This document shows positions 10,140 to 60,691 of a stretch of DNA of 64,000 bases, piece by piece. The position numbers and the translations under genes are program-made. The notes below the pieces were generated by a model. That model searched no databases, was not told where the DNA came from, and saw nothing but the letters and a program-made list of their open reading frames with translations. The stretch's first letter is position 1. Each line of letters opens with the position of its first letter. The stretch is from Bacillus sp. EAC. GTDB lineage: Bacteria; Bacillota; Bacilli; Bacillales; Bacillaceae_G. The DNA lies in assembly GCF_002156875.1 (NCBI RefSeq), contig NZ_NCSY01000004.1, forward strand, positions 1 to 64,000. Reading direction: 5' to 3'.

Positions 10140-10176
10140 TTTTCATTTTCCTTTCATAATTATATGGGAATATAAT
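10140..10176 (+). promoter_or_regulatory. direct-repeat operator and -10 of the COG4705 gene
   Basis: TTTTCAT (10140-10146) and CTTTCAT (10151-10157) are spaced 11 bp, with TATAAT at 10171-10176. The same repeat geometry precedes three other envelope genes in this window. Confidence 0.5.
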
Positions 10177-10211
10177 TTTGTAATTTAAATCAAGTTGAAA
10201 GGAATTTAAAT

Positions 10212-11417
10212 ATGGTAACTAACGAAAATAAAATGAAAGTTTTACTTAGTAAGGTTCCAGAAGTTACTATTTTCTTCTGGATAATCAAAGTTTTATGTAC
10301 GACCGTCGGTGAAACATTTGCTGATTTTCTGAATTTTAACCTTGGATTTGGTTTAGGACGCACTACTTTAATTATGGGAATTGCATTTTTAATCGCATTG
10401 TTTTTTCAGTTCAAAGCAACTAAATATGTTTCAAGCATCTATTGGATTACAGTTGTACTGATAAGTGTATTTGGAACACTGGTAACTGATAATTTGACAG
10501 ACGCAATGGGAGTTCCACTCGAGACTAGTACAATAGTTTTCTCAGTGTTACTAGGATTAACTTTTATTCTTTGGTATCTTAGTGAAAAAACACTTTCAAT
10601 ACACTCAATTTTCACAAGAAAAAGGGAAGTTTTTTATTGGCTTGCCATTCTTTTCACATTTGCACTTGGAACGGCAGTCGGAGATTTATATTCAGAACAA
10701 TTAGGTTTTGGCTATTTTAACACGGGAATAACAGTTATTATTATCATACTTTGTGTATTTTTTGCATGGAAATTCTTAAAGCTTGATGGTATTTTAGCTT
10801 TTTGGGTTGCGTATATTCTTACTCGACCACTCGGAGCTTCATTAGGTGACTACCTATCCCAACCAAAGGTTAATGGCGGATTAGGATTAGGGACAACAGT
10901 TACTAGTGCAATTTTTCTTATAGCAATTTTAGCGATAATCGTTTTCCTTGCCGTTACAAAAATTGATATATCAGCTAAAAATGAATCAGCAGATACAAGT
11001 GAAGCAAATAGAAGCAGGAAAAATGTTTTAATACAAACTATTGCAGTACTTTGTATCTTCTTAGTTGCAGGTGTTGGCGGATACGTTTGGCGCAGTAATA
11101 ATCTAGCTTCGCAAACTAATACTTCTCAAACTACATTAGCTGGACAACTAACTGATTTTGTTAAAATTGAAAATGATATGCTAAAAGATGTGAATTCAAA
11201 AGACTTTACTACAGCTAAAAAAGGTGCCGACAATTTAGAACATCAGTGGGATACATCAGAGGCTAAACTTAGAAATACAGATGGTAAAACTTGGACCAAA
11301 ATTGATGGAACTATTGACGTTGTATTAGCTGCGGTTCGTAATTCAAATCCTGATACAAGCAAGTGTAAAACTGCACTAAACAATTCGCTTAGTGTAATAA
11401 ACGGAGCAAATAAATAA
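10212..11417 (+). CDS. COG4705-type membrane-anchored protein with extra C-terminal domain
   Basis: 401 aa. The N-terminal 255 residues are a polytopic membrane protein of the uncharacterised COG4705 family (conserved VPEVTIFFWIIKVLCTTVGE start and repeated G(D/E)xxxD motifs such as TAVGDLYSEQLGFG and ASLGDYLSQP), with two similar halves. After a charged linker (about 255-280) comes one more TM helix and a soluble C-terminal domain of about 105 aa with Gln/Thr/Lys-rich helices (QLTDFVKIENDML...). Function unknown. AAAGGA lies upstream of the ATG. Transcribed alone; ends in a terminator. Confidence 0.75.
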   Translation: MVTNENKMKVLLSKVPEVTIFFWIIKVLCTTVGETFADFLNFNLGFGLGRTTLIMGIAFLIALFFQFKATKYVSSIYWITVVLISVFGTLVTDNLTDAMGVPLETSTIVFSVLLGLTFILWYLSEKTLSIHSIFTRKREVFYWLAILFTFALGTAVGDLYSEQLGFGYFNTGITVIIIILCVFFAWKFLKLDGILAFWVAYILTRPLGASLGDYLSQPKVNGGLGLGTTVTSAIFLIAILAIIVFLAVTKIDISAKNESADTSEANRSRKNVLIQTIAVLCIFLVAGVGGYVWRSNNLASQTNTSQTTLAGQLTDFVKIENDMLKDVNSKDFTTAKKGADNLEHQWDTSEAKLRNTDGKTWTKIDGTIDVVLAAVRNSNPDTSKCKTALNNSLSVINGANK

Positions 11418-11423
11418 TCACTT

Positions 11424-11453
11424 TAGGAATCGCTACTAGCGGTTCCTTTTTGG
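11424..11453 (+). terminator. terminator of COG4705 gene
   Basis: GGAATCGCT / AGCGGTTCC hairpin with TTTTT. Confidence 0.75.
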
Positions 11454-11627
11454 GTATGAGGATAAAGTGCATTTGGAGGGTGGGATTGCTGCATTTGTAT
11501 ATTTTAAAGCAAGTGTAGCAATAAATTATAGATAAATAGACTTAATAAAATCATCCAAATATGATTCTTTAATAACGATATAGATTTAACAATTTAGAAT
11601 AAACTCTTGATCTATTGAACAATAATA

Positions 11628-11653
11628 GGACAAATTCGTTAGCGAATTTGTCC
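11628..11653. other. perfect 11-bp hairpin in a 470-bp gap
   Basis: GGACAAATTCG / CGAATTTGTCC with TTAG loop, followed by TTAAAAT. Could be a terminator for the reverse-strand HxlR gene or a decayed element. The rest of 11454-11920 shows no gene. Confidence 0.4.
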
Positions 11654-11920
11654 TTAAAATACTTAATAATGTAGTATATTTCTTATTTAACTAACAATCA
11701 AACAGGTGTACAAAACCAGATAGAAACAATAACATTGTTGCTATAAATATTGTCAGATGCAGTTAATCTTGATTGAGTTCAATGGTTAGCTACGAAAGAT
11801 AATAGTAATATTCAAGATTTCTTGTAGTATGAATATTATGGAGTAGCTAATCAATTTTATTAAGACGACTAAAGCCAATCCAAGCCAAGATATGGTTCTA
11901 AACTGAATAATGGATAAATA

Positions 11921-12271
11921 TTATTTACTTCTTACTTCTTCCCCATAAAGCTCCTTTAAGTGTACTAGATGAGATGTTCCCCAATGGTGCATTGATTCTA
12001 AAAGAGGCATTAAACCTTTGCCGTATTTAGAAATTGAATATTCAACTTTAGGTGGAATTTGAGCATATACTTTACGATTGATAATATCGTGATATTCTAA
12101 TTCTCTAAGTTGTGTAGTCAGCATCTTTTTTGTAATTTCAGGTACTAATCGTTGTAGTTCACTAAAGCGTAATGTTTCATTTTCAATAATATGAAATAGT
12201 ATGACAGGTTTCCATTTTCCCACAAGTATATCTAAAGCTGTTTCAATCGTTCCCGCACATTCTTTAGCCAT
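11921..12271 (-). CDS. HxlR-family winged-helix regulator
   Basis: 116 aa. Typical HxlR/MarR-like HTH: LVGKWKPVILFHI, LRFSELQRLVPEITKKMLTTQL, and the wing with QIPPKVEYSISKYG. A conserved Cys at position 5 matches the redox-sensing Cys6 of YodB/CatR/HypR, regulators that respond to quinones, diamide or electrophiles. Divergent from an NADPH-FMN reductase, as yodB is linked to azoreductase/nitroreductase genes in Bacillus. It probably represses that gene and the DoxX gene at 13283 through the shared element at 12297 and 13156. Confidence 0.88.
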   Translation of the reverse strand: MAKECAGTIETALDILVGKWKPVILFHIIENETLRFSELQRLVPEITKKMLTTQLRELEYHDIINRKVYAQIPPKVEYSISKYGKGLMPLLESMHHWGTSHLVHLKELYGEEVRSK

Positions 12272-12296
12272 TTAATTACCTCCCGCTAATGGTTTC

Positions 12297-12340
12297 TTTT
12301 TGTATACTATGTCACATTAAAGTGTCTACTTCTAAATTAG
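12297..12340. promoter_or_regulatory. shared operator/promoter element, copy 1
   Basis: TTTTGTATACTATGTCACAT then AAGTGTCTACTTCTAA. Nearly identical to 13156-13200 upstream of doxX (about 38 of 44 positions). Lies between the divergent hxlR and FMN reductase genes. Partial dyads GTATAC and TAGTxxxCTA resemble known HxlR-family operators (TACTATnnnnnnAAGTA style). Confidence 0.7.
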
Positions 12341-12399
12341 TTTCTTTGGGATTATTATAACAGTAGTAATAAATTTTAAACAAGGAGGATGAAGAAACA

Positions 12400-12948
12400 A
12401 TGTCAAATGGAAATCTTACAATTGGAATTATTTTAGGAAGTACGCGACAAGGAAGAGTTAGCCCTCAAGTTGGTGAATGGGTGAAAGGGATTGCTGAACA
12501 ACGTGGTGATGCTAATTATGAAATAGTCGATATTGCTGAATTCAATTTACCATTTCTAGGAACAACTGATGGAACAGAGCCAGGAATTAAAGCTTGGTCT
12601 GAAAAACTAACTAGTTTAGATGGATTTGTTTTTGTAGTCCAAGAGTATAACCATAGTATTTCAGGAGCATTGAAAAATGCGATTGATTTTGCAAGAGATG
12701 AATGGGCGAATAAGGCAGCAGGTATTGTAAGCTACGGTTCAACAGGTGGTGCTCGAGCAGCTGAGCATCTACGTGGCATCCTAGGAGAAGTACAAATTGC
12801 AGACGTAAGGGTTCATCCAACATTTTCTTTATTCACAGATTTTGAGAACTTTACTACGTTTAAACCATCAGATTTACATAAAAAAAATGTCAATGATATG
12901 CTGAAACAAGTTGTGGCTTGGAGTGGAGCATTAAAAACGTTACGATAA
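12400..12948 (+). CDS. NADPH-dependent FMN reductase (azoreductase-like)
   Basis: 182 aa flavodoxin-like reductase. FMN-binding loop GSTRQGRVSPQVGEW near the N-terminus (residues 11-25), and the family motif PEYN is replaced by VQEYNHSISGALKNAIDF (residues about 82-99); GSTGGARAAEHLR at about 111-123 completes the flavin site. Likely a cytosolic quinone/azo reductase protecting against electrophiles. RBS AAGGAGGAT. Regulated by the divergent HxlR protein (inference from operator). Confidence 0.88.
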   Translation: MSNGNLTIGIILGSTRQGRVSPQVGEWVKGIAEQRGDANYEIVDIAEFNLPFLGTTDGTEPGIKAWSEKLTSLDGFVFVVQEYNHSISGALKNAIDFARDEWANKAAGIVSYGSTGGARAAEHLRGILGEVQIADVRVHPTFSLFTDFENFTTFKPSDLHKKNVNDMLKQVVAWSGALKTLR

Positions 12949-12960
12949 AATTGATTTGAA

Positions 12961-12998
12961 GGAAAGAGGGATACATTTTTATCTCTCTTTCTTTTTTA
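12961..12998 (+). terminator. terminator of FMN reductase gene
   Basis: GAAAGAGGGAT / ATCTCTCTTTC then TTTTTT. Confidence 0.8.
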
Positions 12999-13155
12999 GT
13001 TTTCGTAAAAATTTATTGCAGGAGTCTCGTATCTTCAGATCCTATCAATTTCTTTTTGCAGTAACAAAACCTATAACAAATCAACGCTGTATAGGAGAAT
13101 AGCCTTTTATTTATTAAATATTGTATTAATTTCCCCATCATTCCTTAAGGTATCC

Positions 13156-13200
13156 TTTTGTATACTATGACACATTATAGTAACTACTTCTAATAATTAG
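13156..13200 (+). promoter_or_regulatory. shared operator/promoter element, copy 2
   Basis: TTTTGTATACTATGACACAT then TAGTAACTACTTCTAA, matching the element between hxlR and the FMN reductase gene. Lies about 80 nt upstream of doxX. Confidence 0.7.
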
Positions 13201-13282
13201 TTATAGATAATATAATTTCTTTAGGTATTAAAATGAAACCAAAATGATTAAACAAACTCATTTAATAAGGAGGGGTTATTTT

Positions 13283-13636
13283 ATGAATATCGCCTTATGG
13301 ATTGTTCAAATAATTTTAGCATTAATGTTTTTGATGGCTGGGTTAACGAAAGCATTTCAATATGAAAAAGCGAAATCAAGCTTACCTTGGGTAAAAGATT
13401 ATTCAAAGGGTTTTGTTACATTTATCGGCATTTCAGAATTACTTGGAGCAATTGGATTAATTATACCTTTTGCAACAGGAATCGCACCGATATTAACACC
13501 AATTGCTGCTTTAGCACTTGGATTGGTCATGCTTTTTGCTGCTGTGTTTCATGCGAAGAGAAAAGAAAATGCGGCAATAGGAATGAATATTATTCTAATT
13601 GCGTTAGCAATATTTGTGGCAATTGGTCGTTGGTAA
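13283..13636 (+). CDS. DoxX-family membrane protein
   Basis: 117 aa, four transmembrane helices of the DoxX family, with the conserved FLMAGLTKAFQ and GISELLGAIGLIIP segments. In other bacteria DoxX-like proteins act with quinone or thiol redox enzymes. The start at 13283 follows AAGGAGGGG; an upstream in-frame ATG lacks a site. Carries the same upstream element as the FMN reductase gene, so the two probably respond together to electrophile stress. Confidence 0.85.
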   Translation: MNIALWIVQIILALMFLMAGLTKAFQYEKAKSSLPWVKDYSKGFVTFIGISELLGAIGLIIPFATGIAPILTPIAALALGLVMLFAAVFHAKRKENAAIGMNIILIALAIFVAIGRW

Positions 13637-13719
13637 GAGCGGAAATAATTTGGACCCCATCAATAGTTATTGGTTAAGTTTCCCTTTTTAATGGAAAGCA
13701 GTTTGGATGATTCAATAGA

Positions 13720-13752
13720 GAAAAAGGTGCGCAATTTGCTCACCTTTTTTTG
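13720..13752 (+). terminator. terminator of doxX gene
   Basis: AAAAAGGTG / CACCTTTTTT hairpin. Confidence 0.8.
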
Positions 13753-13934
13753 TGTAAAAAACACTGAAAATTAATTAAGTTGAATAATACATACGAAATA
13801 GATAATGCTATATATTAAATGGAAAATATTTGGATTTTACTATGTGGAGTAATTAATATAGTGTGAATGTTGTAGACTTAAATCGATAAGCTAAGATTTT
13901 TGTAACCGGATTAATCATTATTTAGGAGAAAATT

Positions 13935-14501
13935 ATGACATTTGATGATATTGCCCAATTACTGATTACTTATAAAGATTATGCCATTGTATTAAGCATC
14001 TTAATTAATATACTGATCAGCATAATTGGGGTAGTTCCTAGCTGGTTTCTTACAGCAATTAATATTAAACTTTTTGGGATAACAGGTGGTTTTTTAGTAT
14101 CTTATATTGGAGAACTCTCTGGAACGATGGTTGCTTTCTTTTTATATAGATTTGGATTTCAAAATAGATTTAAGAAAAATTCAAGTAAATTTAAGTATTT
14201 ACAAAAGCTTTTAAGTTTAGAAGGTAAAGAGTCTTTTTACGCGGTTCTTTCTTTACGTTTAATTCCATTTATACCATCTAGTTTAATTACTTTATTTGCT
14301 GCGTTTGGAAAAGTTACATTAAAAAATTTCTTTTTGGCCAGTTTGATTGGTAAAATACCAGTTTTAATCCTTGAAACATATTCTGTAAATCAAGTATTAG
14401 AATTCACTTTGTTTGGTAAAATCCTAATCTGCATAATTTTAGCTGGAATAATTATTTATTTTTATAAAAATAGAACTAAAGTATTTGGAAATAGTAATTA
14501 A
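13935..14501 (+). CDS. TVP38/TMEM64 (VTT-domain) membrane protein
   Basis: 188 aa, five to six membrane segments of the VTT superfamily to which DedA also belongs. Signature pieces: VPSWFLTAINIKLFG, YIGELSGTMVAFFLYRFG and LSLRLIPFIPSSLITLFAAFG (R and Pro-rich re-entrant loop, quoted partly). Such proteins are implicated in lipid flipping or scrambling. RBS TAGGAGA. First of three VTT/DedA proteins in 12 kb. Confidence 0.82.
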   Translation: MTFDDIAQLLITYKDYAIVLSILINILISIIGVVPSWFLTAINIKLFGITGGFLVSYIGELSGTMVAFFLYRFGFQNRFKKNSSKFKYLQKLLSLEGKESFYAVLSLRLIPFIPSSLITLFAAFGKVTLKNFFLASLIGKIPVLILETYSVNQVLEFTLFGKILICIILAGIIIYFYKNRTKVFGNSN

Positions 14502-14608
14502 TCCTATTGGGAGATATAAAAAATAAGATTTAATCTGTGTTAATCAACTAACACGGCTTGGGATAATGTGAGTAGATACAAATGTAGTTCTAAATTCGTA
14601 GAAAATGA

Positions 14609-14649
14609 GAAACAGAAAAGCCAAGTAAAGCTATTTCTGTTTTTTTGTT
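14609..14649 (+). terminator. terminator of TVP38-family gene
   Basis: AAACAGAAA ... TTTCTGTTTTTTTG hairpin with AGC/GCT inner pairing. Confidence 0.75.
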
Positions 14650-14750
14650 TGTTTTAAGTTAAAATAGATGTCTTTTGAATAGATCATCCTTTACTTTAAA
14701 CACTTAATGTTCCATAAAGTTACAAATTTGTCCTAATATGTCGTATTAAT

Positions 14751-14784
14751 TTTTCATTGTATTTTCACTTTTCTTTTGTATGTT
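14751..14784 (+). promoter_or_regulatory. direct-repeat operator and -10 of the 4-His membrane gene
   Basis: TTTTCAT (14751-14757) and TTTTCAC (14762-14768) spaced 11 bp, then exactly 10 nt to TATGTT (14779-14784). Confidence 0.5.
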
Positions 14785-14842
14785 ATCTATTAATCGGAAT
14801 TAAGAAAAAAGAAATTCCTTTTTTATAGAAAGGATTGAATTT

Positions 14843-15412
14843 ATGTTAGTAAATTGGATCAGAAATAAAAATGAGAGGAAATTAATCTATTTAGCATTTA
14901 TTGTTTCGTTCATTATTTTCATTGCTGGATGGTGGACAATTGAGCATCGCTCTGCATTGTCAACTAATGTTCAATCTCACCTTCAAAATGGATATAATCA
15001 TTTGAAAGAATTTAATCCCTTGAAATCTTATGCCAAGAGCAAGGGCTCTCTCGGTCGACTTGGCGTTTTTACAGCATTTGCAATTTTCCCTATTTATTTT
15101 TTATTAAGAGTAAATAAATTAAATAATAAAAAAGAGTTAAAAAAATCACTTGCAAAGGTGTTGAAATGGGTTAAGTTACTCCATGTACCAATTTCATTGA
15201 TCACATTTGCATTAATCACAGTGCACTCGATTGTAATGACTTTTTATGAATGGAAGACAAATGCAGTTTATATATCAGGTGTAATCGCATATTTGCTTTT
15301 ACTTCCACTAGGTATATTTGGATTCTTACGATACAAAAGAAAAGATAAAAACTGGCACTACTATCTATCATTTGCAGTTGTTATCTCCATGTTAATCCAT
15401 ACTTTTATTTAA
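14843..15412 (+). CDS. polytopic membrane protein, possible b-type haem protein
   Basis: 189 aa. One N-terminal TM helix (about 14-32), an extracytoplasmic loop, then about five helices. The last four carry single histidines placed inside or at helix ends: LLHVP, TVHSI, WHYYL and LIHTFI, the pattern of bis-His haem ligation in ferric-reductase-like or DUF4405-like four-helix cytochromes. No close family was recognised, so haem binding is inference. RBS AAAGGAT. Single-gene transcript with its own terminator and a two-repeat operator upstream. Confidence 0.6.
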   Translation: MLVNWIRNKNERKLIYLAFIVSFIIFIAGWWTIEHRSALSTNVQSHLQNGYNHLKEFNPLKSYAKSKGSLGRLGVFTAFAIFPIYFLLRVNKLNNKKELKKSLAKVLKWVKLLHVPISLITFALITVHSIVMTFYEWKTNAVYISGVIAYLLLLPLGIFGFLRYKRKDKNWHYYLSFAVVISMLIHTFI

Positions 15413-15476
15413 AAAAGAAGTATTTTTTATTGGTGAAAAAATGAATTTACCTATTCAATAAATTATCATCCTAAAA

Positions 15477-15528
15477 AGATAAAAACAGAAAACCCAAATT
15501 GATGGCGTTTCTGCTTTTATCTTTTTTA
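15477..15528 (+). terminator. terminator
   Basis: GATAAAAACAGAAA ... TTTCTGCTTTTATC stem and T run. Confidence 0.8.
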
Positions 15529-15709
15529 TATTTAATTCGTTTATATTCTTATAAACTACTTTAGCTTTTCAACTAAGTTAAAAAGATTGTTGTTTTACTA
15601 ATAGGTTTTGGTTAAGTAAACTACTTTAATAAAATATGAAGAATAAAGCAAGAATAGATAGAAAATAATACTTAATTGGTGAGGAGTTTTCAAAATTAGG
15701 GGGGATACT

Positions 15710-16201
15710 TTGTACAATCAAATAGTAAAAGCTATACCCAATTTATTAACAATAGGAAATTTAGTTTGTGGTGTGCTTTCAATAACTTTAAATATGAATA
15801 GCTTATTAAAAGAAGCCTGCATTTTTATTTTTATTTCAGCCTTTTTTGATCTTTTAGACGGAAGAGTAGCTAGGAAATTAAAAGTTAATAGTGAATTTGG
15901 AGTAGAATTGGATTCCTTAGCTGATATTGTTAGTTTCGGAGTTGCTCCTGCACTTATATTCTATTCGATAGCTACTCCATCAATTTTGACTTCATTGGCA
16001 TTTATCCTTTTTCCTACGATGGGTGCGTTAAGATTAGCTAAATTTAGTGTTAAACCAACCATTGGGTATTTTAAAGGTTTACCTATTCCAGCTGCTGGAT
16101 TACCATTGGCTTTTATGGGATTGTTTTTATATAGCAATGCGTGGATTACCTTAATCCTAGCTATCTTAATGGTTAGTCCAATCAGAATAAAAAAACTTTA
16201 A
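15710..16201 (+). CDS. pssA: CDP-diacylglycerol-serine O-phosphatidyltransferase
   Basis: Makes phosphatidylserine, the precursor of phosphatidylethanolamine, at the membrane. 163 aa. The CDP-alcohol phosphotransferase signature D-G-x2-A-R-x8-G-x3-D-x3-D is complete in FDLLDGRVARKL plus GVELDSLAD (residues about 45-70). TTG start after AGGGGGGAT. In B. subtilis pssA is followed by ybfM (DedA) and psd; here the DedA gene is downstream but convergent and psd is absent from the window. Confidence 0.93.
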   Translation: MYNQIVKAIPNLLTIGNLVCGVLSITLNMNSLLKEACIFIFISAFFDLLDGRVARKLKVNSEFGVELDSLADIVSFGVAPALIFYSIATPSILTSLAFILFPTMGALRLAKFSVKPTIGYFKGLPIPAAGLPLAFMGLFLYSNAWITLILAILMVSPIRIKKL

Positions 16202-16244
16202 GTAGTTTATTAATCAAAATAAAGCTAGTATCCTTATCGTGAAA

Positions 16245-16289
16245 TACCCCGTAAATGGTTAGCACCAACTAACATTACGGGGTGTTTTT
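16245..16289. terminator. bidirectional terminator between pssA and the DedA-PAP2 gene
   Basis: ACCCCGTAAATGGTTAG / CTAACATTACGGGGT stem with T run on the + strand. Confidence 0.85.
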
Positions 16290-16328
16290 ATGACCAAATG
16301 TACATAGGATGAAAAGCTGCAACATCAC

Positions 16329-17630
16329 TTAAGATATTTTCTCTAGACGAATGCCCTCTTTTATAAGAGACAAGAAGCGAAACATTTCCATTGATAAAAT
16401 TGATCCACTCACCAAAACAGCACTGAAAACAAAACCGATCATTATATCGCTTGGTGTGAAATGGAAAAGGTACACAGCACTTATTGAATAGCCCGTTAAA
16501 ATGCTAATAAAAAAGATAAACATTCCAACGGCAAAGAGTAAGTTCGAACGGTGGCGAATCAGCATAACGTAAAATAACCCATACACAGAAAATAACAGCA
16601 TTGATTGTTCAAATGGAATAGAAGCAGCGATCTTAATACTGCTAAACATAAAATTGAAGAACCAATGAATTCCTTTTGAAAATAGAATGGTTGCGATCAC
16701 GATTGAAACATAAAAAGTAAGCTCTAACCATTTATTTTTCCTATTCAATAAAATTGCAGCAACTGTAATAAGTGTAATTGTTAGTAACAAGCTCCAAGAA
16801 GAAAAGAAATATACGAATTTAATAAGACCTTTATAGTTTACATTTATCAATGAGAATACAATTGTTTTAAAGATTGAATTGAACTTACCAAACTCATTAC
16901 TTACTAAATCCTGAATGATGCCAATCATTAAGGTAAAGAAAGTAATAAATATGATTAGAAAGGTTAATAATACAAACTTTATTTTTAAAAGGCTATTGTA
17001 TTTATGAAAAACCGATTGAAATATAAGGAACATAGACTCTTTTATAAAGACCCTGTTAGTTCTTACAATAAAATAAATAAGTGCAACAAAAGCAAAAACT
17101 ATACTACCTAGCACCAACCATTTTGTTATTACACTTTCGTATTGATGATATTTTGGACCCAGAACATTTCCTAACCAAATAAAGGTGCTTATCCATAGAA
17201 GGACACCTATATTTGCAAAAATGGAAAAAGAGCGGAAGGGAAGTTTAATCACGCCAGATATAATACTTGCAATATGTCTAACGCCAGGAATAAAGTAAGA
17301 AAATATCAATAAAATTTTTCCGTATTTTTGATACCAAATCTCCATTTTCTCCATTTTCTCAGGTCCCATATGAATGAAATGACCGTATTTACGGAAAAAA
17401 GGGGCACCAAGCTTATACCCTATCCAATAGGAAACTGTTACACCAATCATTCCACCAAATCCTGCAGAAATAATGGAGAGGATAAGATTCATCTTACCTT
17501 GATAACAAAGGACACCGACATAACTCATTAAAGCTTCATTTGGAATAGGTAAAATGATTAGTTCCAACATCAAGGATAAAAATAGAATAATATATCCATA
17601 CTCATTTAATAAATGAATGATTGCATTCAT
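16329..17630 (-). CDS. DedA-family protein fused to a degenerate PAP2 domain
   Basis: 433 aa membrane protein. Residues 1-190: DedA/VTT domain with the essential acidic residue in LELIILPIPNEALM and the arginine in YFIPGVRHIASIISG, so a lipid (undecaprenyl phosphate or PE) flippase activity is plausible. Residues about 220-430: PAP2-like topology, but the phosphatase motifs are gone: SIPFEQSMLLFSVYGL stands where FPSGHAMLSF-type is expected, and SAVYLFHFTPSDIMIGF where SRxYLGVHYPSD is expected (the Arg is lost). ATG at 17630 follows AGGAG with 8-nt spacing; an upstream TTG has no site. Next to pssA, as ybfM is in B. subtilis. Confidence 0.82.
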   Translation of the reverse strand: MNAIIHLLNEYGYIILFLSLMLELIILPIPNEALMSYVGVLCYQGKMNLILSIISAGFGGMIGVTVSYWIGYKLGAPFFRKYGHFIHMGPEKMEKMEIWYQKYGKILLIFSYFIPGVRHIASIISGVIKLPFRSFSIFANIGVLLWISTFIWLGNVLGPKYHQYESVITKWLVLGSIVFAFVALIYFIVRTNRVFIKESMFLIFQSVFHKYNSLLKIKFVLLTFLIIFITFFTLMIGIIQDLVSNEFGKFNSIFKTIVFSLINVNYKGLIKFVYFFSSWSLLLTITLITVAAILLNRKNKWLELTFYVSIVIATILFSKGIHWFFNFMFSSIKIAASIPFEQSMLLFSVYGLFYVMLIRHRSNLLFAVGMFIFFISILTGYSISAVYLFHFTPSDIMIGFVFSAVLVSGSILSMEMFRFLSLIKEGIRLEKIS

Positions 17631-17792
17631 TACTTCAGCTCCTAAAACACTCAAATAAAAGTAAATTTAAATTTATTTAATTCATCGTATCAAAATATAA
17701 AATAAAAAACATAGTAATATGATTAGGATTTCTGAAAAATTGGTATTTTTAGTATAAAAGTTAAGTGTACAAATTTCTCTCATAATATGTAA

Positions 17793-17835
17793 AACGAGCC
17801 TTAAGAATCGATTCTAGAGGCTCATTTTTATTTTT
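17793..17835 (+). terminator. hairpin with T tract in a gene-free gap
   Basis: GAGCCTTAAGAATC / GATTCTAGAGGCTC followed by ATTTTTATTTTT. No + strand gene is visible immediately upstream, so it may be a relic. Confidence 0.5.
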
Positions 17836-18003
17836 AGTTGTTCAGTTCTTAATTGTGATGTACTGATTTTTCAATAGTTTACATTGATCCTGGAAAATAT
17901 TTTAAGCTAGTATTGTGAACGTGTACCGGAATTGTCATAAGGTAATAACTTAAAGTATTACCTTCATTATTATTAAATGATATGCTGTGTAATATACTGT
18001 TAA

Positions 18004-18108
18004 TATTACAAAACGGATATAGAAGAAGGTACCGGCATAATCCCACATGAAATTATATTTATGGATTGTGGAAATCAATTATCTTTTATAGCAGAGCCTT
18101 TTAAATAG
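18004..18108 (+). pseudogene. possible C-terminal gene fragment
   Basis: Frame open from the TAA at 18001 to TAG at 18106, reading YYKTDIEEGTGIIPHEIIFM then DCGNQLSFIAEPFK. No start codon with a site. The composition looks like a conserved protein C-terminus, but I cannot name the family. The surrounding 17655-18150 otherwise holds only hairpins (for example GGTAATA / TATTACC at about 17941-17963). Confidence 0.3.
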
Positions 18109-18150
18109 TAAATGTTTTTGAAAAAATATAACTTATTAATACTTTTATCA

Positions 18151-18180
18151 TTGACAGATTAGTTATGCTACCTCTATAAT
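18151..18180 (+). promoter_or_regulatory. SigA promoter of T-box transcript
   Basis: Perfect TTGACA (18151-18156) and TATAAT (18175-18180) with 18-nt spacer. Confidence 0.8.
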
Positions 18181-18186
18181 ACAAAA

Positions 18187-18473
18187 CATACTTACTGCAG
18201 TAAGAAATGATTATATTAACATATTAAGCAATGATGGGAATTTCAGTAGTGCTTATCTCACTGTTTTAGAGAGCTGATGGAAGGTGGAAATCAGTACAAA
18301 GATAAGGATGAATTACAACCCCTGAGCATTTTTTTCGAAATAAAGATTATCTTTATAGAGGGAAAAACGGTCAAAAACGATCGTTAACAAATTCGAGAGG
18401 CAGACTTGGTCTGCAACTAGGGTGGTACCGCGAACTTTTCGTCCCTACTGATACAATCAGTAGGGGCTTTTTT
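18187..18473 (+). promoter_or_regulatory. T-box riboswitch 1 (Tyr UAC or Leu UUA specifier)
   Basis: Contains AGAGAGCTGATGGAAGGTG (distal stem I), the loop-E pair AGTA ... GAA, the specifier strand GAATTACAA (18310-18318), the T-box AGGGTGGTACCGCG (18419-18432) and terminator CCCTACTGAT / ATCAGTAGGG with T run (18443-18473). The antiterminator uses GGTGGTACCGCG plus CGTCCC. Reading TAC (followed by the usual purine) gives Tyr; reading the triplet right after GAA gives TTA (Leu). Confidence 0.93.
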
Positions 18474-18499
18474 ATTTTATGAAAAACTTAATATCGGAT

Positions 18500-18756
18500 A
18501 TGCAATGAAAGGAACACAGTAATGCTAGTTTCCCTGTTTTAGAGAACTGATGGAAGGTGCGAATCAGTACATAAACAAGCATGAATTACAGTCCTGGAGC
18601 AATCTTTTTCGAAGTAAAGGGTGACTTTTAGAACGGGAAAGACGGTCATTTGATCGTTAATCAAAATCAAGAGACAGACATTTATTTAAGTCTGTAATTA
18701 GGGTGGTAACACGGTGTAAATCGTCCCTGTCGTAAATGACAGGGACGATTTTTTTA
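18500..18756 (+). promoter_or_regulatory. T-box riboswitch 2, in tandem
   Basis: AGAGAACTGATGGAAGGTGCG, specifier strand GAATTACAG (18583-18591), T-box AGGGTGGTAACACGG (18700-18714) and terminator GTCCCTGTC / GACAGGGAC with T run (18723-18755). Same specifier context as T-box 1. No separate promoter is evident between the two, so both probably act in series on one transcript. Confidence 0.93.
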
Positions 18757-18784
18757 TATTAAATCTTATTGAGGAGAAAAAAAT

Positions 18785-20119
18785 ATGGAATTACAAAAGA
18801 AATTATTACCAAGACATATCCGTTTAATGGCACTCGGGGGAGCCATCGGAACAGGTATTTTTAAAGGAACTTCTGAAACAGTATCGATAGCGGGGCCAGC
18901 AGTTATATTTTCTTATCTGTTTGCTGGTTTATTACTTCTAGTTGTAATGAGTGCAATTGCCGAGATGGCTATCGCTTTCCCTGGGTTGAATATGAAAGGG
19001 TTTATTCGAAAAGCGTTTGGGACTAAGGTGTCCTTTGTAATCGGGTGGCTTTACTGTTTTATGTGGATCGTAGTTTGTGTCATTGAAGTTATAGCTGCTG
19101 GAAGCTTTCTACAGTATTGGTTTCCTTCTATGTCTTTATGGTCATTAAGTTTTATTAGTGCTATTTTTATTGTTGCCATTAATTTTATGAATGTGAAACG
19201 TTACGGTGAAATCGAATTTTGGTTTGCCGGAATAAAAATTACGATGATTGTTTTATTTATTGTTTTAGGGGCATGTATACTATTTGGAATCATCCCAAGT
19301 AATGACAGTAACTATATTCAAAATTACGTACAACACCAAGGCTTCTTCCCGCACGGTTGGTCGGGAGTGTTTTCGGCACTATTAATTGTAATTTTTTCTT
19401 ACGGTGGATCTGAACTGATCGGATTGACCTTAACTGAAACGAAGGATGCAGAGAAGGTATTGCCTAAAGTGATAAAAGGAGTAATTTGGAGAATTGTGAT
19501 ATTCTATACGCTCCCAATCCTTATCATTTGTGGTTTAATTCCATGGAATGAAATTGGAAATCAAGCTAGTCCGTTTGTACAAGTATTATCTACAGTTGGA
19601 TTTAAAGGAGCGGCTCATATAATGAATTTCGTCCTTATTACAGCTGTTCTGTCTGCAGCAAACTCTGGTATTTATGGTTGTACACGGATGATGTACTCTT
19701 TAGCCGCGGAAGGTGAAGCACCAAAGCTGTTTTCATATGTTTCTAAAAACGGTGTGCCTATTTATACTGTTATTTTAAGTGCAATTATTCTTGTTGGTGG
19801 TACATTTGTTGCGTACTTTTCACCTGATCGTGTTTTTGGCTATTTGATGGCAATACCAGGATTTACAGTTTCATTAGTTTGGATTAGCATATGTTTAGCT
19901 CAATTGAAGCTTCGTAAAACATATAAAGACATTCCACATTTTAAAGTATGGGGATTTCCATATGCCACTTCTTTTACTGTAATAGCGCTAAGTATTAGTT
20001 GTGTGGCATTTGCATTTAGCGAACAGAATAGATTGAGTATGTTTGTTTGTCTAAGTATGTTAATTATTTTAATTATATGTTCACTTTTAAGAGACAAAAA
20101 AAGTAAAAAAAATAAGTAA
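18785..20119 (+). CDS. amino acid permease (APC superfamily, AAT type)
   Basis: 444 aa, twelve predicted TM helices. Begins with the family hallmark LLPRHIRLMALGGAIGTGIF (substrate backbone-binding GGAIGTGIF in TM1) and has the TM6 region FSYGGSELIGLTLTETKDAEK. ATG after GAGGAGA. Controlled by two tandem T-boxes, so uptake is switched on by uncharged tRNA; the substrate is the cognate amino acid of the specifier (Tyr or Leu). The B. subtilis T-box-controlled permease YvbW is the nearest parallel by design. Confidence 0.88.
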   Translation: MELQKKLLPRHIRLMALGGAIGTGIFKGTSETVSIAGPAVIFSYLFAGLLLLVVMSAIAEMAIAFPGLNMKGFIRKAFGTKVSFVIGWLYCFMWIVVCVIEVIAAGSFLQYWFPSMSLWSLSFISAIFIVAINFMNVKRYGEIEFWFAGIKITMIVLFIVLGACILFGIIPSNDSNYIQNYVQHQGFFPHGWSGVFSALLIVIFSYGGSELIGLTLTETKDAEKVLPKVIKGVIWRIVIFYTLPILIICGLIPWNEIGNQASPFVQVLSTVGFKGAAHIMNFVLITAVLSAANSGIYGCTRMMYSLAAEGEAPKLFSYVSKNGVPIYTVILSAIILVGGTFVAYFSPDRVFGYLMAIPGFTVSLVWISICLAQLKLRKTYKDIPHFKVWGFPYATSFTVIALSISCVAFAFSEQNRLSMFVCLSMLIILIICSLLRDKKSKKNK

Positions 20120-20143
20120 ATACCCAGTAAGAATCGGATTTTT

Positions 20144-20186
20144 AAAAAACAGAGAAACCCAAGTGACGGGTTTTTCTGTTTTTTTG
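20144..20186 (+). terminator. terminator of permease gene
   Basis: AAAACAGAGAAACCC / GGGTTTTTCTGTTTTTTT. Confidence 0.85.
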
Positions 20187-20311
20187 CTCTGTAAATATAA
20201 ATTGCTGATATTTAAATAAAGGCTAGTCAAGAGAGTATGTGGCCGGTAATACGGAAACCAAGTAGTTTAGCAGTTGTTTTTTAGAAGTTATATTTAGACC
20301 TAGTATCAAGA

Positions 20312-20345
20312 TTTTCATCATTTTTTCATAAACCATCGTTATAAT
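20312..20345 (+). promoter_or_regulatory. direct-repeat operator and -10 of bcrC-like gene
   Basis: TTTTCAT (20312-20318) and TTTTCAT (20323-20329), spacing 11 bp, then 10 nt to TATAAT (20340-20345). Confidence 0.6.
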
Positions 20346-20379
20346 GATTCGGGACTTACCTAAATTGGAGGAGAAATTA

Positions 20380-20970
20380 ATGAATTACTCATTATTTAAA
20401 TTGATAAATGGTTTCGCAGGAAAATCCGAAGTATTAGATCAAGCAATGATTATCTTGTCTAAATCCGCAATCATTATCGCGATTGGTCTTGTAATGTATT
20501 TATGGTTTCTAAATAAAAATGAACGTAAGTATACAGCCTTTTATATCGGATTAACACTTATTTTAGCATTAGGAAGTAATTACATTATCCACGCATTTTA
20601 TTACCATCCACGACCATTTATTTCACATCATGTTGTAAAACTTATTAGTCATTCATCGGACTCTTCATTTGTAAGTGATCACGGAACATTAGTATTTTCG
20701 ATTGCTTTTATCTTATTAATGAGAAAAGATCGATTAGCGAAATTTACTTTACTATGGGCAATTTTAGTTGGTCTATCTCGTATTTATGTTGGAGTGCACT
20801 ATCCTTTAGATATAATCGGTGCAATTATTTTGTCAGGGATTACTTCACTTGTTGTTATTAAAACGGCCTCTTTAACAAACCCTATAATGAAAATATTAAT
20901 GAAACTAAACGAATTTATAGTAAGGAAAGTTCCATTTTTAAATAATAAAGAGCTTAAATCCTTAGATTAA
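20380..20970 (+). CDS. bcrC: undecaprenyl-diphosphatase, BcrC-like PAP2 protein
   Basis: Recycles undecaprenyl pyrophosphate to the monophosphate carrier on the outer membrane face; homologues give bacitracin resistance. 196 aa (B. subtilis BcrC 193). Motifs: YYHPRPF (motif 1), SFVSDHGTLVFSIA (motif 2; Val replaces the Pro of the usual FPSDHG), LSRIYVGVHYPLDIIGA (motif 3 with catalytic Arg and His). ATG at 20380 follows GGAGGAGA; an upstream in-frame ATG at 20344 has no site. Carries the two-repeat operator shared with three other genes, rather than an obvious ECF promoter. Confidence 0.87.
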   Translation: MNYSLFKLINGFAGKSEVLDQAMIILSKSAIIIAIGLVMYLWFLNKNERKYTAFYIGLTLILALGSNYIIHAFYYHPRPFISHHVVKLISHSSDSSFVSDHGTLVFSIAFILLMRKDRLAKFTLLWAILVGLSRIYVGVHYPLDIIGAIILSGITSLVVIKTASLTNPIMKILMKLNEFIVRKVPFLNNKELKSLD

Positions 20971-21091
20971 AAAAACAAAATTGATGTAAGAAAATGGAAA
21001 TGTTAATGATAGAGTTGAAGAGATAAAAGCTGGAGAAGATAATATTAATACTACTCCAAGAAATATAAAAAAAATTTAAAAAATTTACAGA

Positions 21092-21125
21092 TTTTCATTG
21101 GATTTTCATTATTCTCATGTACATT
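21092..21125 (+). promoter_or_regulatory. direct-repeat operator and -10 of the glycosyltransferase unit
   Basis: TTTTCAT (21092-21098) and TTTTCAT (21103-21109), spacing 11 bp, then 10 nt to TACATT (21120-21125). Confidence 0.55.
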
Positions 21126-21152: not shown

Positions 21153-21302
21153 ATGGAGCAATTAGTTTCATAAGTGTTTGACATACGTTATAAACTAATT
21201 CAACTTCCATATTGGTTTAAAAATAAAAATTATGATGAATTTTCAATCATTGGCTTATCGGGACCTTTGAAAATTACTTGGAATATAAGTAAAAAGTGGT
21301 AG
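21153..21302 (+). pseudogene. small ORF split by an in-frame stop
   Basis: ATG follows a strong AAGGAGGA site, but codon 7 is TAA (21171-21173). The same frame then continues open for 42 codons: VFDIRYKLIQLPYWFKNKNY ... LSGPLKITWNISKKW. The downstream part is protein-like (aromatic and basic), and GTG follows the stop directly. Either a small gene inactivated by a nonsense mutation, a hexapeptide leader before a GTG-initiated 42-aa peptide, or chance. It sits 14 nt before the glycosyltransferase gene. Confidence 0.4.
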
Positions 21303-21316
21303 AAGGTGGATAGATT

Positions 21317-22423
21317 ATGGAAAAGCAATCTAAAGTACTTGTGGTAACTTCAAGTTTTGGAAGTGGGCATAAACAAGTTTCCAAAGCATTAAAAAGTGAA
21401 TTTGAACATTGTAATTTTAAGAATGTAACGATCATTGACTTATATGATGAAGCGTATCCTACTTTAAATACTTTCGCCAAAAGTTTACATTTACAATTGT
21501 TTCAACATGCCCAAACAATGTACAAATGGTTTTTTTATGGATCAGAAAAAATTTGTAACACAGCTATCTTTGACTGGCTTTTAGAAAGAAGCGGTAAAAA
21601 AATAAAAAGTATTCTTGAAAATGAAAAACCAGATATTATTGTAACAACGTTTCCGGTTGGTACAGTGGCTAAATGGAAAAAAAAATCTGTACACCCATTC
21701 AAATTATATACAGTTATAACTGACTACTATATACACCGTTCATGGATTCATGAAGAAATTGATCGTTATTATATTGCAACTGAAGAATTAAAATATCAAA
21801 TGGTGGATTTAGGAGTATCTTTGTCAAAAATTTATGTAAGTGGTATACCTCTTCGTAAAGAGTTTAGAGAAATAATGCCGATCATAAATGAAAAGAGTAA
21901 TAAATCAGTGTTAAATTATCAGATTTTAATTGTTGCTGGTGCGTTCGGGATTTTAAAAGATGTAGAAAAAATAGCCAAGCAATTACTTACTGATGAAAAG
22001 TTGAATGTAATGGTTGTGTGTGGAAATAATAGGATTTTATATAAAAAACTAATTAATTTAGAAGAAGAATACAAGGGTAGAATTCATGTGTATGGTTACG
22101 TGAATGATATACAAAATCTATATCGAAAAGCAGATTTATTAATTACAAAACCTGGTGGTATAACATTAACAGAATGTATTGCATGTAGTTTACCAACTAT
22201 TCTTTATCGTCCAACTCCAGGTCAAGAGATTGAGAATTCACGCGTATTTGAAAATGTTGGAGCATCGGTTACAGTTAAGACTATAAAAGAGTTAATTGAA
22301 TTTATAGATCAAATTCTTGCGAAGCCTAATGCTTTAGATCAAATGAAATCTTCATTGCGAATGCTCTATAAAGGATTTAGTTCACAATTAATTGTGAATG
22401 ATATTTTTAGTTCCACTTCTTAG
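21317..22423 (+). CDS. UgtP-like processive diacylglycerol glucosyltransferase
   Basis: GT28 (MurG-like) enzyme transferring glucose from UDP-glucose to diacylglycerol at the inner membrane face, giving glycolipid and the lipoteichoic acid anchor. 368 aa (UgtP 382). N-terminal MGDG-synthase domain: TSSFGSGHKQVSKAL; nucleotide-sugar site: VYGYVNDIQNLYRKADLLIT and KPGGITLTECIA. RBS AGAAGGTGG. As the window does not show the chromosomal ugtP locus, this may be a second paralogue. Downstream of the two-repeat operator at 21092. Confidence 0.85.
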   Translation: MEKQSKVLVVTSSFGSGHKQVSKALKSEFEHCNFKNVTIIDLYDEAYPTLNTFAKSLHLQLFQHAQTMYKWFFYGSEKICNTAIFDWLLERSGKKIKSILENEKPDIIVTTFPVGTVAKWKKKSVHPFKLYTVITDYYIHRSWIHEEIDRYYIATEELKYQMVDLGVSLSKIYVSGIPLRKEFREIMPIINEKSNKSVLNYQILIVAGAFGILKDVEKIAKQLLTDEKLNVMVVCGNNRILYKKLINLEEEYKGRIHVYGYVNDIQNLYRKADLLITKPGGITLTECIACSLPTILYRPTPGQEIENSRVFENVGASVTVKTIKELIEFIDQILAKPNALDQMKSSLRMLYKGFSSQLIVNDIFSSTS

Positions 22424-22469: not shown

Positions 22470-23171
22470 TTAACTTTTAAATTCATCAACCCTTACAAAC
22501 TGATATTGTTTTTCTTGGCAATAAGTAATGAAGCTTTCTAAAGCCTCAATTGTATTGAGCGGTGCATTTTCATCTGCTCCAAGAGTCTTACCATTATCAT
22601 GTAGTAAAATGATGGAACCTGGTTTGGTATTTTTTACTAGTCGATCTAAAATACCTTTGCTTCCTTGTTTACTATTCCAATCATAAGCCATAACTGTCCA
22701 CAATATCGTATTGTATTTTCTTTGAAAGAAAATAGGAAGTGATACTAAGCCCCACGGTGGGCGGTAAAAATTAGGTTCAGCTTTTGTAAGTTCTTTAATA
22801 ATCTTACCAGTTTTTTCTATTTGTTTATGTAATACCTTTGGACTTAAGAACCAACTGCATGTATGGAAATAATTATGAATACCAATTAGATGACCTTCTT
22901 CATGAATTCGTTTAATGATTGTTGGATTATTTTCAGCTTCAGATCCTAACACAAAAAACGTAGCTTTTATCGAATGACTTTTAAGTAAATCTAAAATAAT
23001 TGGTGTATAAGTTGGATTTGGGCCATCGTCAAATGTTAAAGCAATACTAGAATGACTCTTTAAACGATTAGTCGAACGAATCTCAAACACACGTGTTAAA
23101 AAACTAGGAATAAGAGCGTAAATAACAAAAAATACTAAAAAAATACAGCCGATTATCAAGAAAAAAAACAA
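22470..23171 (-). CDS. membrane-anchored polysaccharide deacetylase
   Basis: 233 aa, NodB domain after one N-terminal TM helix. NodB motifs: LTFDDGPNP (motif 1, Asp pair), HNYFHTCSW (motif 2; metal His), RPPWG (motif 3), ILLHDNG (motif 5). Probably removes N-acetyl groups from peptidoglycan or a surface polymer outside the cell. TTG start 9 nt after GAGGAG. Convergent with the glycosyltransferase gene. A second NodB protein lies at 27332. Confidence 0.87.
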   Translation of the reverse strand: MFFFLIIGCIFLVFFVIYALIPSFLTRVFEIRSTNRLKSHSSIALTFDDGPNPTYTPIILDLLKSHSIKATFFVLGSEAENNPTIIKRIHEEGHLIGIHNYFHTCSWFLSPKVLHKQIEKTGKIIKELTKAEPNFYRPPWGLVSLPIFFQRKYNTILWTVMAYDWNSKQGSKGILDRLVKNTKPGSIILLHDNGKTLGADENAPLNTIEALESFITYCQEKQYQFVRVDEFKS

Positions 23172-23334: not shown

Positions 23335-24009
23335 TTGAGAATATTATTTGCTGAAGACGATCATAAATTAGGAAAATTAACTACTCATCTATTAAAAGCG
23401 CAAACACCTTTTCAAATTGAGTGGTGCACGAATGGAAGAGAAGCATTAGAACTTGCGTCACATACTAACTTTGACTTAATTATTTTAGATTGGATGTTGC
23501 CTGAAGTCAGTGGTTTAAACATTTGCAAAAAACTTCGAGGGGATGGGTTTAAAGGTCCAATACTTATGTTGACAGCAAAAGACAGTATTAATCATCGAGT
23601 AGAAGGTTTAGAAGCTGGAGCGGATGATTATTTGATAAAGCCATTTAATTTTAGTGAACTTATTGCAAGAATTAAAGTGTTAAATAGACGAAATTTTGCT
23701 CCTTTACAAGAAGAAGTAATGACATTAGAAGATTTAACCTATAATCGGACAAGCTATAGCCTTAATAGAGGAGATCATCAAATAGTATTAACTCAAAGAG
23801 AGTTCCAATTATTTGATTTACTAGTAAAAAATCGGGGCATTGTTCTAACAAGAGAAGTTATATTTGAACGAGTGTGGGGAAATGATTCAGAAGTAACAAG
23901 TAATACAGTAGATGCGTATGTCAAAAATCTAAGGAAAAAAATAGATTTGCCCAATCAGCAGACTTATATAAAAAGTATTAGAGGTGTTGGATATACAATC
24001 GAAAAATGA
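23335..24009 (+). CDS. OmpR-family response regulator
   Basis: 224 aa. Receiver with acidic pocket EDD (residues 7-9), phospho-acceptor Asp52 in LIILDWMLP and Lys in YLIKPF; C-terminal winged helix ending in RGVGYTIEK. TTG start after AGAGGGGAT. Stop overlaps the kinase start by 26 nt, so the pair is translationally coupled. Candidate regulator of the four TTTTCAT-repeat promoters in this region (inference). Confidence 0.92.
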   Translation: MRILFAEDDHKLGKLTTHLLKAQTPFQIEWCTNGREALELASHTNFDLIILDWMLPEVSGLNICKKLRGDGFKGPILMLTAKDSINHRVEGLEAGADDYLIKPFNFSELIARIKVLNRRNFAPLQEEVMTLEDLTYNRTSYSLNRGDHQIVLTQREFQLFDLLVKNRGIVLTREVIFERVWGNDSEVTSNTVDAYVKNLRKKIDLPNQQTYIKSIRGVGYTIEK

Positions 24010-25312: not shown

Positions 25313-25339
25313 AAACTAGCACCATTTTTTGGGGAAAAC

Positions 25340-25996
25340 ATGGCACTATTGGAGAGTTTTATTGATATCATTTTGCACTTAGATCATCATTTATTATCTT
25401 TTGTGCATCAGTACGGAGCACTAACATATATGATTTTATTTATCATTATTTTACTTGAGACAGGAGTTGTCGTAACACCATTTTTACCTGGAGATTCATT
25501 AATATTTACTGCAGGAGCAATCGCTGCGCAAGGTTCTTTAAATATTTATGTTTTACTTGTGCTTTTAATTATTGCGGCTAGTTTGGGAGATACACTAAAT
25601 TATTTTATTGGTAGAACAATTGGTTTAAAAGTACTAAATAATAAAAAAATGAAATTAATAAATGTAAAATACATTCAAGATACACAGGAGTTTTATAACC
25701 GTAAGGGATCTAAATTTATTGTATTGGCAAGGTTTATACCAATAATAAGAACGTTTGCGCCATTTGTGGCTGGAATTGGAAAAATGAATTACTCCAAGTT
25801 TATTACGTATAATATCCTTGGTGCGACACTTTGGGTTAGTTTAATGGTTTTAATTGGATTTTTCTTTGGTAATATTTCATTAGTCAAAAATCATTTTGGA
25901 CTGTTAACAATCGGTATAATTATTGTTTCAGTTGTTCCAATCGTTAAAGATGTGATTATAAGTTTTATGAAAAAAAGTAAAAATAGACAAATTTAA
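25340..25996 (+). CDS. DedA-family membrane protein
   Basis: 218 aa, full-length DedA/VTT protein with the acidic LLETGVVVTPFLPGDSLIF loop and ARFIPIIRTFAPFVAGIGKM (catalytically important Arg). DedA members such as UptA translocate undecaprenyl phosphate across the membrane; others move PE. ATG 28 nt after the kinase stop with a GGGG site, so co-transcribed with the two-component system; suggests a sensed envelope stress answered by lipid-carrier flipping. Confidence 0.88.
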   Translation: MALLESFIDIILHLDHHLLSFVHQYGALTYMILFIIILLETGVVVTPFLPGDSLIFTAGAIAAQGSLNIYVLLVLLIIAASLGDTLNYFIGRTIGLKVLNNKKMKLINVKYIQDTQEFYNRKGSKFIVLARFIPIIRTFAPFVAGIGKMNYSKFITYNILGATLWVSLMVLIGFFFGNISLVKNHFGLLTIGIIIVSVVPIVKDVIISFMKKSKNRQI

Positions 25997-51043: not shown

Positions 51044-51069
51044 TAATTTGCACAAAAAAAGCACAAATA

Positions 51070-51168: not shown

Positions 51169-51192
51169 TGAATATCTATGAAAATTAATCTT

Positions 51193-51568: not shown

Positions 51569-51615
51569 TCTACTCTTTAATGATTATTTATCATTATTGT
51601 AGTCTACTAACCATC

Positions 51616-60671: not shown

Positions 60672-60691
60672 AAAACAAATTTGATAAATAG

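Follow-up and report, generated by a model that had tools for sequence, protein, structure and literature searches.

Do short direct repeats in front of several envelope genes of Bacillus sp. EAC mark the targets of a single two-component system (TCS)? The question is raised by positions 1 to 64,000 of contig NZ_NCSY01000004.1 (assembly GCF_002156875.1), the 64,000-nucleotide stretch referred to below as the window, which contains four tandem pairs of a TTTTCAT-like heptamer (the boxes). An earlier interpretation based on the letters alone (the sequence-only reading) had proposed that the pairs are sites of an OmpR-family activator, with the response regulator (RR) encoded at 23335 as the candidate, and that they define an envelope and lipid-carrier regulon. 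Conservation, operon layout in relatives, and association with one clade of RRs support this proposal at the level of sequence. We consider it probable that the boxes are binding sites of the RR encoded at 23335-24009, through which the kinase encoded at 23984-25312 would control and activate envelope genes. The boxes and the -10 hexamers that follow them, as read from the sequence, are listed here.

10140..10157, plus strand: box 1, TTTTCAT-N4-CTTTCAT, 5' of the DUF347/COG4705 gene
10168-10173 or 10171-10176, plus strand: -10 candidates of box 1, GAATAT (N10) or TATAAT (N13)
14751..14768, plus strand: box 2, TTTTCAT-N4-TTTTCAC, 0 mismatches to the Y pattern (TTTTCAY in both repeats)
14779..14784, plus strand: -10 of box 2, TATGTT, at exactly N10; sister genomes read TACATT
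20312..20329, plus strand: box 3, perfect TTTTCAT-N4-TTTTCAT
20340..20345, plus strand: -10 of box 3, TATAAT, at exactly N10
21092..21109, plus strand: box 4, perfect TTTTCAT-N4-TTTTCAT, the ugtP-like gene's own box
21120..21125, plus strand: -10 of box 4, TACATT, at exactly N10

Every coordinate reported earlier for the repeat pairs (10140/10151, 14751/14762, 20312/20323, and 21092/21103) was confirmed, as were the 10 nucleotides that separate the second repeat from a -10-like hexamer in the last three (at 14779, 20340, and 21120). All four pairs have an 11-bp period and a 7+4+7 layout, with the box at about -40 to -23. Each site has the form of a tandem-repeat operator, namely two direct repeats of ~7 bp with a period of 10-11 bp near the -35 region, and the 7+4+7 layout is that of the pho box, in agreement with the OmpR-family type assigned earlier. 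At the box promoters, -35 hexamers at a spacing of 16-18 nucleotides matched TTGACA at no more than three of six positions.

Could such repeats arise by chance in a genome with a G+C content of 33%? The whole window genome (4,330,675 bases in 28 contigs) was searched with the 34-bp full pattern TTTTCAY-N4-TTTTCAY-N10-TANNNT and with its repeat core, using the reversed pattern, shuffles, and second-order Markov sequence as controls. With up to two mismatches, the core matched 21 times in the window against 6.87 +/- 2.51 expected, a count that 0 of 100 shuffles reached. With up to one mismatch, it matched 71 times in the whole genome compared with 36 for the reversed pattern; five perfect cores were present, two of them in the window, against an expectation of 0.7 per genome. 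A genome-wide scan had been suggested by the sequence-only reading, and it placed the motif above random frequency: the full pattern with up to one mismatch occurred 10 times, against 2 reversed, and 131 full-pattern sites, against 38 reversed, were counted over 13 genomes of the genus. Four perfect full sites were detected in the window genome, each 5' of a gene, at 14751, 20312, and 21092 and before a small DUF347 gene on contig 13. This last site and the many sites in relatives contradict the earlier description of the regulon as local. The view that AT-rich sequence produced the repeats by chance, or that they are part of normal sigma-A promoters, as could be argued from the base composition, from the 6.9 loose matches expected in the window at two mismatches, and from several intragenic single-mismatch matches, is opposed by the three perfect full patterns in 64 kb compared with 0 in 12 Mb of simulated second-order Markov sequence, by 21 perfect sites in other genera compared with 0 reversed, and by conservation of the box above its flanks. 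(The first 30 loci with single-mismatch core matches in the window genome were read; many were intragenic and were excluded from the targets.) We regard this explanation as having a negligible probability and rejected it on the basis of the shuffles, the reversed controls, the simulation, and the scan of other genera; for the sites at 14751, 20312, and 21092, a chance origin is very unlikely.

The genes that these boxes precede, and those of the proposed regulatory system, are as follows.

10212..11417, plus strand: DUF347 (COG4705) membrane protein, putative target (Pfam DUF347, 199 bits)
14843..15412, plus strand: mem4His, small membrane protein, putative target (conserved box; invariant histidines)
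20380..20970, plus strand: bcrC-like PAP2 phosphatase, probable undecaprenyl-diphosphatase (Pfam PAP2; NCBIfam PRK11837, 95.8 bits, cut-off 229)
21317..22423, plus strand: UgtP-like diglucosyl-diacylglycerol synthase, putative target (Pfam MGDG_synth; NCBIfam PRK13609, 380.9 bits, cut-off 500)
22470..23171, minus strand: polysaccharide deacetylase, without a box (Pfam; conserved neighbor of the ugtP-like gene, found in all 7 sister loci)
23335..24009, plus strand: OmpR/PhoB-family RR, proposed box-binding protein (Pfam Response_reg and Trans_reg_C)
23984..25312, plus strand: cognate sensor histidine kinase (HK) (Pfam HisKA and HATPase_c)
25340..25996, plus strand: DedA-family membrane protein, encoded at the end of the RR operon (Pfam VTT_dom; NCBIfam PRK10847, 233 bits, cut-off 236)

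The downstream products named earlier (a DUF347/COG4705 membrane protein, a 4-His membrane protein, and bcrC-like and UgtP-like proteins) were recovered by Pfam or by invariant histidines. The RR contains PF00072 (96 bits) and PF00486 (85 bits), both above cut-off, which places it in the OmpR/PhoB family; it had been called an orphan, a label that does not hold, as its kinase lies at 23984-25312. The bcrC start is most likely at 20380 and not at 20344, because the ATG at 20344 overlaps the -10 hexamer, and comparison with sister genomes also supports 20380. For mem4His, Pfam and NCBIfam searches gave no match; residues H114, H128, H172, and H186 were invariant in an alignment of seven relatives including Paenibacillus periandrae, and these histidines are compatible with a haem-binding membrane protein.

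Is the connection between the boxes and this RR visible in related genomes? Among 12 other genomes of the genus, seven contained an RR ortholog with at least 83% identity and one (G004) an ortholog with 64% identity, and the best match in G001, G003, G008, and G010 was 39-41% identical. The eight genomes with an ortholog of at least 83%, the window's own included, are called RR-positive here and are compared with the other five. In seven of seven sister genomes, a first operon begins with a perfect box, N10, and TATAAT and encodes bcrC-RR-HK-dedA, and a second begins with TTTTCAT-N4-TTTTCAC, N10, and TACATT and encodes mem4His and the ugtP-like protein, followed by the convergent polysaccharide deacetylase gene. 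The placement of the RR in a box-driven operon with bcrC and dedA supports the 23335 RR as the candidate regulator. In the window, the same genes are apart (mem4His at 14843, bcrC at 20380, the ugtP-like gene at 21317, and RR-HK-dedA at 23335-25996); the separated bcrC, mem4His, and ugtP-like units each have a box, and the RR operon has none. The ugtP-like gene of the window has the perfect box at 21092; in the sister loci it lies directly 3' of mem4His and has no box to itself. The arrangement looks like a natural experiment, in which the genes of box-driven operons in sister species stand here as three separated units, each with a box. Between box 4 and the ugtP-like gene (21153-21302), we also observed a ribosome-site-like stretch, a very short, stop-terminated frame, and then an open frame of 42 codons whose product had no match in any locus retrieved from outside the window genome; this stretch is possibly a decayed gene or a leader.

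Comparison of orthologous promoters, another check named in the sequence-only reading, revealed that the box and its spacing were kept. The perfect pattern preceded bcrC (0 mismatches) and mem4His in all eight RR-positive genomes, and small DUF347 genes in 8/8. For large DUF347 genes, the core was present at eight of nine loci, covering all eight RR-positive genomes; a scan of the whole ninth locus (L229) detected no core. A third DUF347 group had the core at 5/5. Within aligned promoters, the box was conserved above its flanks: invariant columns were 14/14 in the repeats, 6/6 in the -10, and 25/166 in the flanks for bcrC (seven rows); 14/14, 5/6, and 41/166 for large DUF347 genes (seven rows); and 11/14, 3/6, and 21/166 for mem4His (eight rows, with the divergent G004 included). 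The RR-positive genome G012 was omitted from the bcrC and mem4His alignments. Perfect full sites numbered 29 in the eight RR-positive genomes (3.6 each) versus 6 in the other five (1.2 each), which is not zero. G004, with its 64% identical RR, has TTTTAAT-N4-TTTTAAA-N10-TATAAT 5' of mem4His, and no box was found 5' of its bcrC-like and DUF347 genes; the altered site fits a changed RR specificity, although this is a single case. One locus of G004 (L265, 9422-12941) contains a bcrC-like gene (41%), a gene that reads as UgtP-like, and a deacetylase-like gene beside a different RR-HK pair, without a box.

Does the association reach beyond the genus? In a maximum-likelihood tree of 71 RRs, one supported clade (99/91) had a box at the RR gene or its operon in 20 of 27 rows, and no box was found for the other 44 rows when the 450 nucleotides 5' of the RR gene were scored. 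This contrast is favourable because scoring was looser inside the clade, where operon promoters up to ~2.5 kb away were accepted, than outside it, where 450 nucleotides were used. A label shuffle on the tree gave 3 changes versus 18.3, in a run with 21 "box" labels that wrongly included the window's own box-less RR. When a fixed 450-nucleotide region was applied to 143 distinct RRs, a box was detected in 6 of 29 with at least 44% identity and in 1 of 114 below that value, against 0/143 for the reversed pattern; one of the six matches (L291) falls within bcrC, on the opposite strand, and resembles a chance match. A scan of whole loci with up to two mismatches gave 55 forward and 14 reversed matches in 108 partly overlapping loci.

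The box clade extends to Geobacillus and Paenibacillus, and the RR relatives of other genera with a box at their own gene are ~45-54% identical to the window RR. A box directly 5' of the RR, starting 35-67 nucleotides before the RR start, was found in Geobacillus proteiniphilus, Paenibacillus periandrae, G030, G018, and G027, with a second, divergent box in three of these five loci; in G034 and G057, the box stands before the operon. These boxes at the RR's own gene or operon in other genera also favor the 23335 RR as the regulator. In eight genomes of other genera, which were chosen because their RR loci had already been retrieved, the perfect pattern occurred at 21 sites compared with 0 for the reversed pattern. 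Eight of the 21 were RR, operon, or divergent promoters, two more lay in regions already retrieved, and 11 were new.

Several observations weigh against assigning the boxes to this RR. No box precedes the RR in the window (the best core has four mismatches), and seven of the 27 clade rows, the window RR included, have none at the RR gene or operon with up to one mismatch. Among these rows, L110, L111, and L273 have a two-mismatch box near the RR or its divergent neighbor and L102 has one after its HK; for L109, L281, and the window RR, no box was found even at two mismatches. An RR outside the tree (L147, 39% identity) has a divergent one-mismatch match; it accounts for the 1 of 114 in the fixed-region scoring. 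The site at 10140 deviates in its box-to--10 spacing; as aligned orthologs of the large DUF347 gene keep GA(A/T)TATA at this -10 position, it is read as a variant of spacing. A gtaB-like box was detected at 1 of 30 UGPase loci, the window genome's own; a general box before UGPase genes was therefore rejected, and gtaB is a candidate in this species only. Three genomes without a close RR ortholog also have boxes: G010 and G003 each have a near-identical box 5' of a small DUF347 gene, G010 has others 5' of a mem4His paralog and at one further site, and G008 shares this further site. Their presence implies either that a second regulator recognizes the same sequence or that some boxes are relics. 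Finally, a second, different RR gene stands beside the FMN-binding box gene of Paenibacillus periandrae, and a paralog TCS (~52% identity) in seven sister genomes has a similar box of its own, TTTTCAC-N4-ATTTCAC-N10-TAGAAT. In the two loci read, this box precedes genes for a 136-aa protein, a PspA/LiaH-type protein (NCBIfam LiaH, 112 bits, below the cut-off of 380), an RR, and an HK.

The boxes in G010, G003, and G008, the paralog TCS, and the second RR of Paenibacillus periandrae would all be explained if the boxes were real and their main regulator were another OmpR-family protein, such as an RR paralog or a CssR-type regulator, with the 23335 RR binding some sites or none. CssR, of the CssR/CssS system of B. 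subtilis, is itself an OmpR-family protein, which we take to differ from the window RR. Its canonical half-site, the octamer TTTTCACA, resembles the half-site described here (PMC6749698). In G018, an HtrA-type protease gene is preceded by a box, and in Geobacillus such a gene stands behind a box gene. However, the RR-HK-HtrA operon of the genus, the likely CssRS counterpart, contained no core with up to one mismatch in the three regions read, and CssR was rejected as the regulator in this genus. At the same threshold, 13 HtrA loci (~1.5 kb each side) yielded two cores, both on the strand opposite HtrA and inside the upstream gene. Likewise, 0 of 30 RR loci of G010 (from 32 RR-type matches, each locus with flanks of 1.5 kb or up to the end of the contig) had a full-pattern site with up to one mismatch. 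No counterpart of the 52% paralog was detected in the window genome, where the second-best RR is 45% identical. Control mainly by another OmpR-family protein is unlikely in our estimate, and we continue with the 23335 RR as the preferred regulator.

How would this RR act at the boxes? Regulators of the OmpR/PhoB type occupy 7-bp repeats, spaced by 4 bp, as tandem dimers (PMC4832192 and PMC4415409), and the M. tuberculosis PhoP tandem dimer requires the 7+4+7 geometry (PMC4832192). By analogy, the kinase, on an envelope or membrane-redox signal, would phosphorylate the RR, and two RR molecules would bind head-to-tail, one per 7-bp repeat and about one helical turn apart. Located at about -40 to -23, the dimer would substitute for the poor -35 and recruit sigma-A RNA polymerase, and the RR would thereby switch on bcrC, mem4His, the ugtP-like glucosyltransferase gene, and the genes for DUF347 membrane proteins. 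That the 23335 RR is the binding protein, that it activates and does not repress, that it is phosphorylated, and what it responds to are all inferred from the sequence pattern. A repressor would also work at this position, where the box extends over the -35 region into the spacer, and the RR might block the promoter until its phosphorylation state changes. Against this, promoters without a usable -35 (three of six matches at most) should be weak absent an activator, and the 10-nucleotide gap between box and -10 returns at many genes in many genera, a regularity that polymerase contact would predict; this second point is weaker than it looks because the distance was built into the search patterns. 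Repression by the 23335 RR seems quite improbable, and activation by polymerase recruitment is the likeliest reading. In the sister genomes, where the RR operon is itself box-driven, activation would include feedback; in the window species, the split operon and the RR promoter without a box imply that this feedback was probably lost.

Is this a new kind of regulon? In E. coli pho promoters, as here, 10 nucleotides separate the box from the -10. The boxes and the RR form a PhoB-type tandem-box regulon, a kind already known. The pho box of PhoB/PhoP likewise has two 7-bp direct repeats with a 4-bp spacer in 11-bp units (PMC4415409 and PMC4832192), with CTGTCAT(A/T)4CTGTCAT as the E. coli form (PMC4832192). 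In contrast, the repeat here is TTTTCAY, the targets are envelope genes and not genes for phosphate uptake, and the window RR scored 189.1 bits against TIGR02154 PhoB, below the cut-off of 296.2, which does not assign it to the phosphate-regulon PhoB/PhoP group. RppA/RppB (NCBIfam NF041734/NF041735) is the named family that the window RR and HK match best, and this also applies to the RRs of Geobacillus and Paenibacillus; however, the window RR (209.2 bits, cut-off 250) and HK (184 bits, cut-off 400) remained below these thresholds, and three cyanobacterial rows of the tree lie outside the box clade. In B. subtilis, bcrC is a SigM gene. SigM increases recycling of the lipid carrier at times of carrier shortage (PMC11081497), a similar output, but it is an extracytoplasmic function (ECF) sigma factor and not a TCS. 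The CiaR-type regulator BAS0540 resembles the present system in having an OmpR-family direct-repeat box and its own gene in the predicted regulon, in Bacilli; its box, TTTAAG-N5-TTTAAG, differs in sequence and spacing (PMC4938410). Among the matches listed by literature searches of open-licence papers, no description of this regulon was found.

Which genes would the regulon contain? In the window, the bcrC-like and DedA proteins point to lipid-carrier recycling and the ugtP-like enzyme to glycolipids. Elsewhere in the genus, boxes were also found 5' of FMN_bind-ApbE-RnfD genes, DUF2231 genes, and a mem4His paralog, the window genome having been covered by the pattern searches only. By Pfam, the box genes of G018 encode an HtrA-type protease (Trypsin_2 and PDZ), a DUF4405 membrane protein, and an HlyD-type membrane-fusion protein with a MacB-like ABC transporter. 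Those of Paenibacillus periandrae encode an FMN_bind protein with ApbE and a mem4His homolog (no Pfam family), and that of Paenibacillus sp. RC67 encodes an FMN_bind protein. The divergent box in Geobacillus lies 5' of a gene for a PepSY_TM protein, followed by one for an HtrA-family protease. At several of the 21 sites in other genera, no readable gene was present behind the box in the loci.

The combined set joins lipid-carrier recycling (bcrC, dedA) and glycolipid synthesis (ugtP-like) with small redox-type membrane proteins (mem4His, DUF347, DUF2231), and this joining yields testable predictions for unannotated families. For one TCS, the analysis connects a motif with a clade of regulators and with a set of targets, and the motif can be scanned in any Bacilli genome. 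More speculatively, this could be an undescribed, widespread stress regulon of Bacilli, in which an RppA-like TCS clade couples recycling of the lipid carrier and production of glycolipids to membrane redox proteins and the kinase might read the state of membrane electron transfer or lipid oxidation as a signal of envelope damage. The membrane redox proteins would then, equally speculatively, be the FMN-binding/ApbE/RnfD and DUF2231 proteins and the ferric-reductase- and DUF4405-like small membrane proteins.

Two further groups of sites were observed in the genus. In L259 (near 9491) and L270 (near 9302), a box precedes a short reading frame adjoining genes for a CsoR-type repressor and a rhodanese; this box is perfect in G007, G008, G010, and G012 and has one mismatch in G003, G005, G006, G009, and G011, and a link to sulfur or persulfide stress is possible. 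The site ATTTCATNTTATTTTCAT-N10-TACACT is present in 10 of 13 genus genomes, including four of the five without a close RR ortholog (for example, G000:C21:542093, G005:C1:532224, and G011:C1:1557272), and the two loci that were read show no gene behind it on that strand.

The window also contains several riboswitch-type elements. Two tandem T-box leaders (18222-18449, 141.6 bits, and 18496-18731, 136.6 bits) lie 5' of an amino-acid permease-like gene at 18785, and two divergent thiamine pyrophosphate riboswitches (51064-51173, minus strand, and 51463-51577, plus strand) are ~290 bp apart. A flavin mononucleotide riboswitch (113 bits) was detected at 60690-60838; it deserves mention because the box targets of relatives include flavin-dependent genes.

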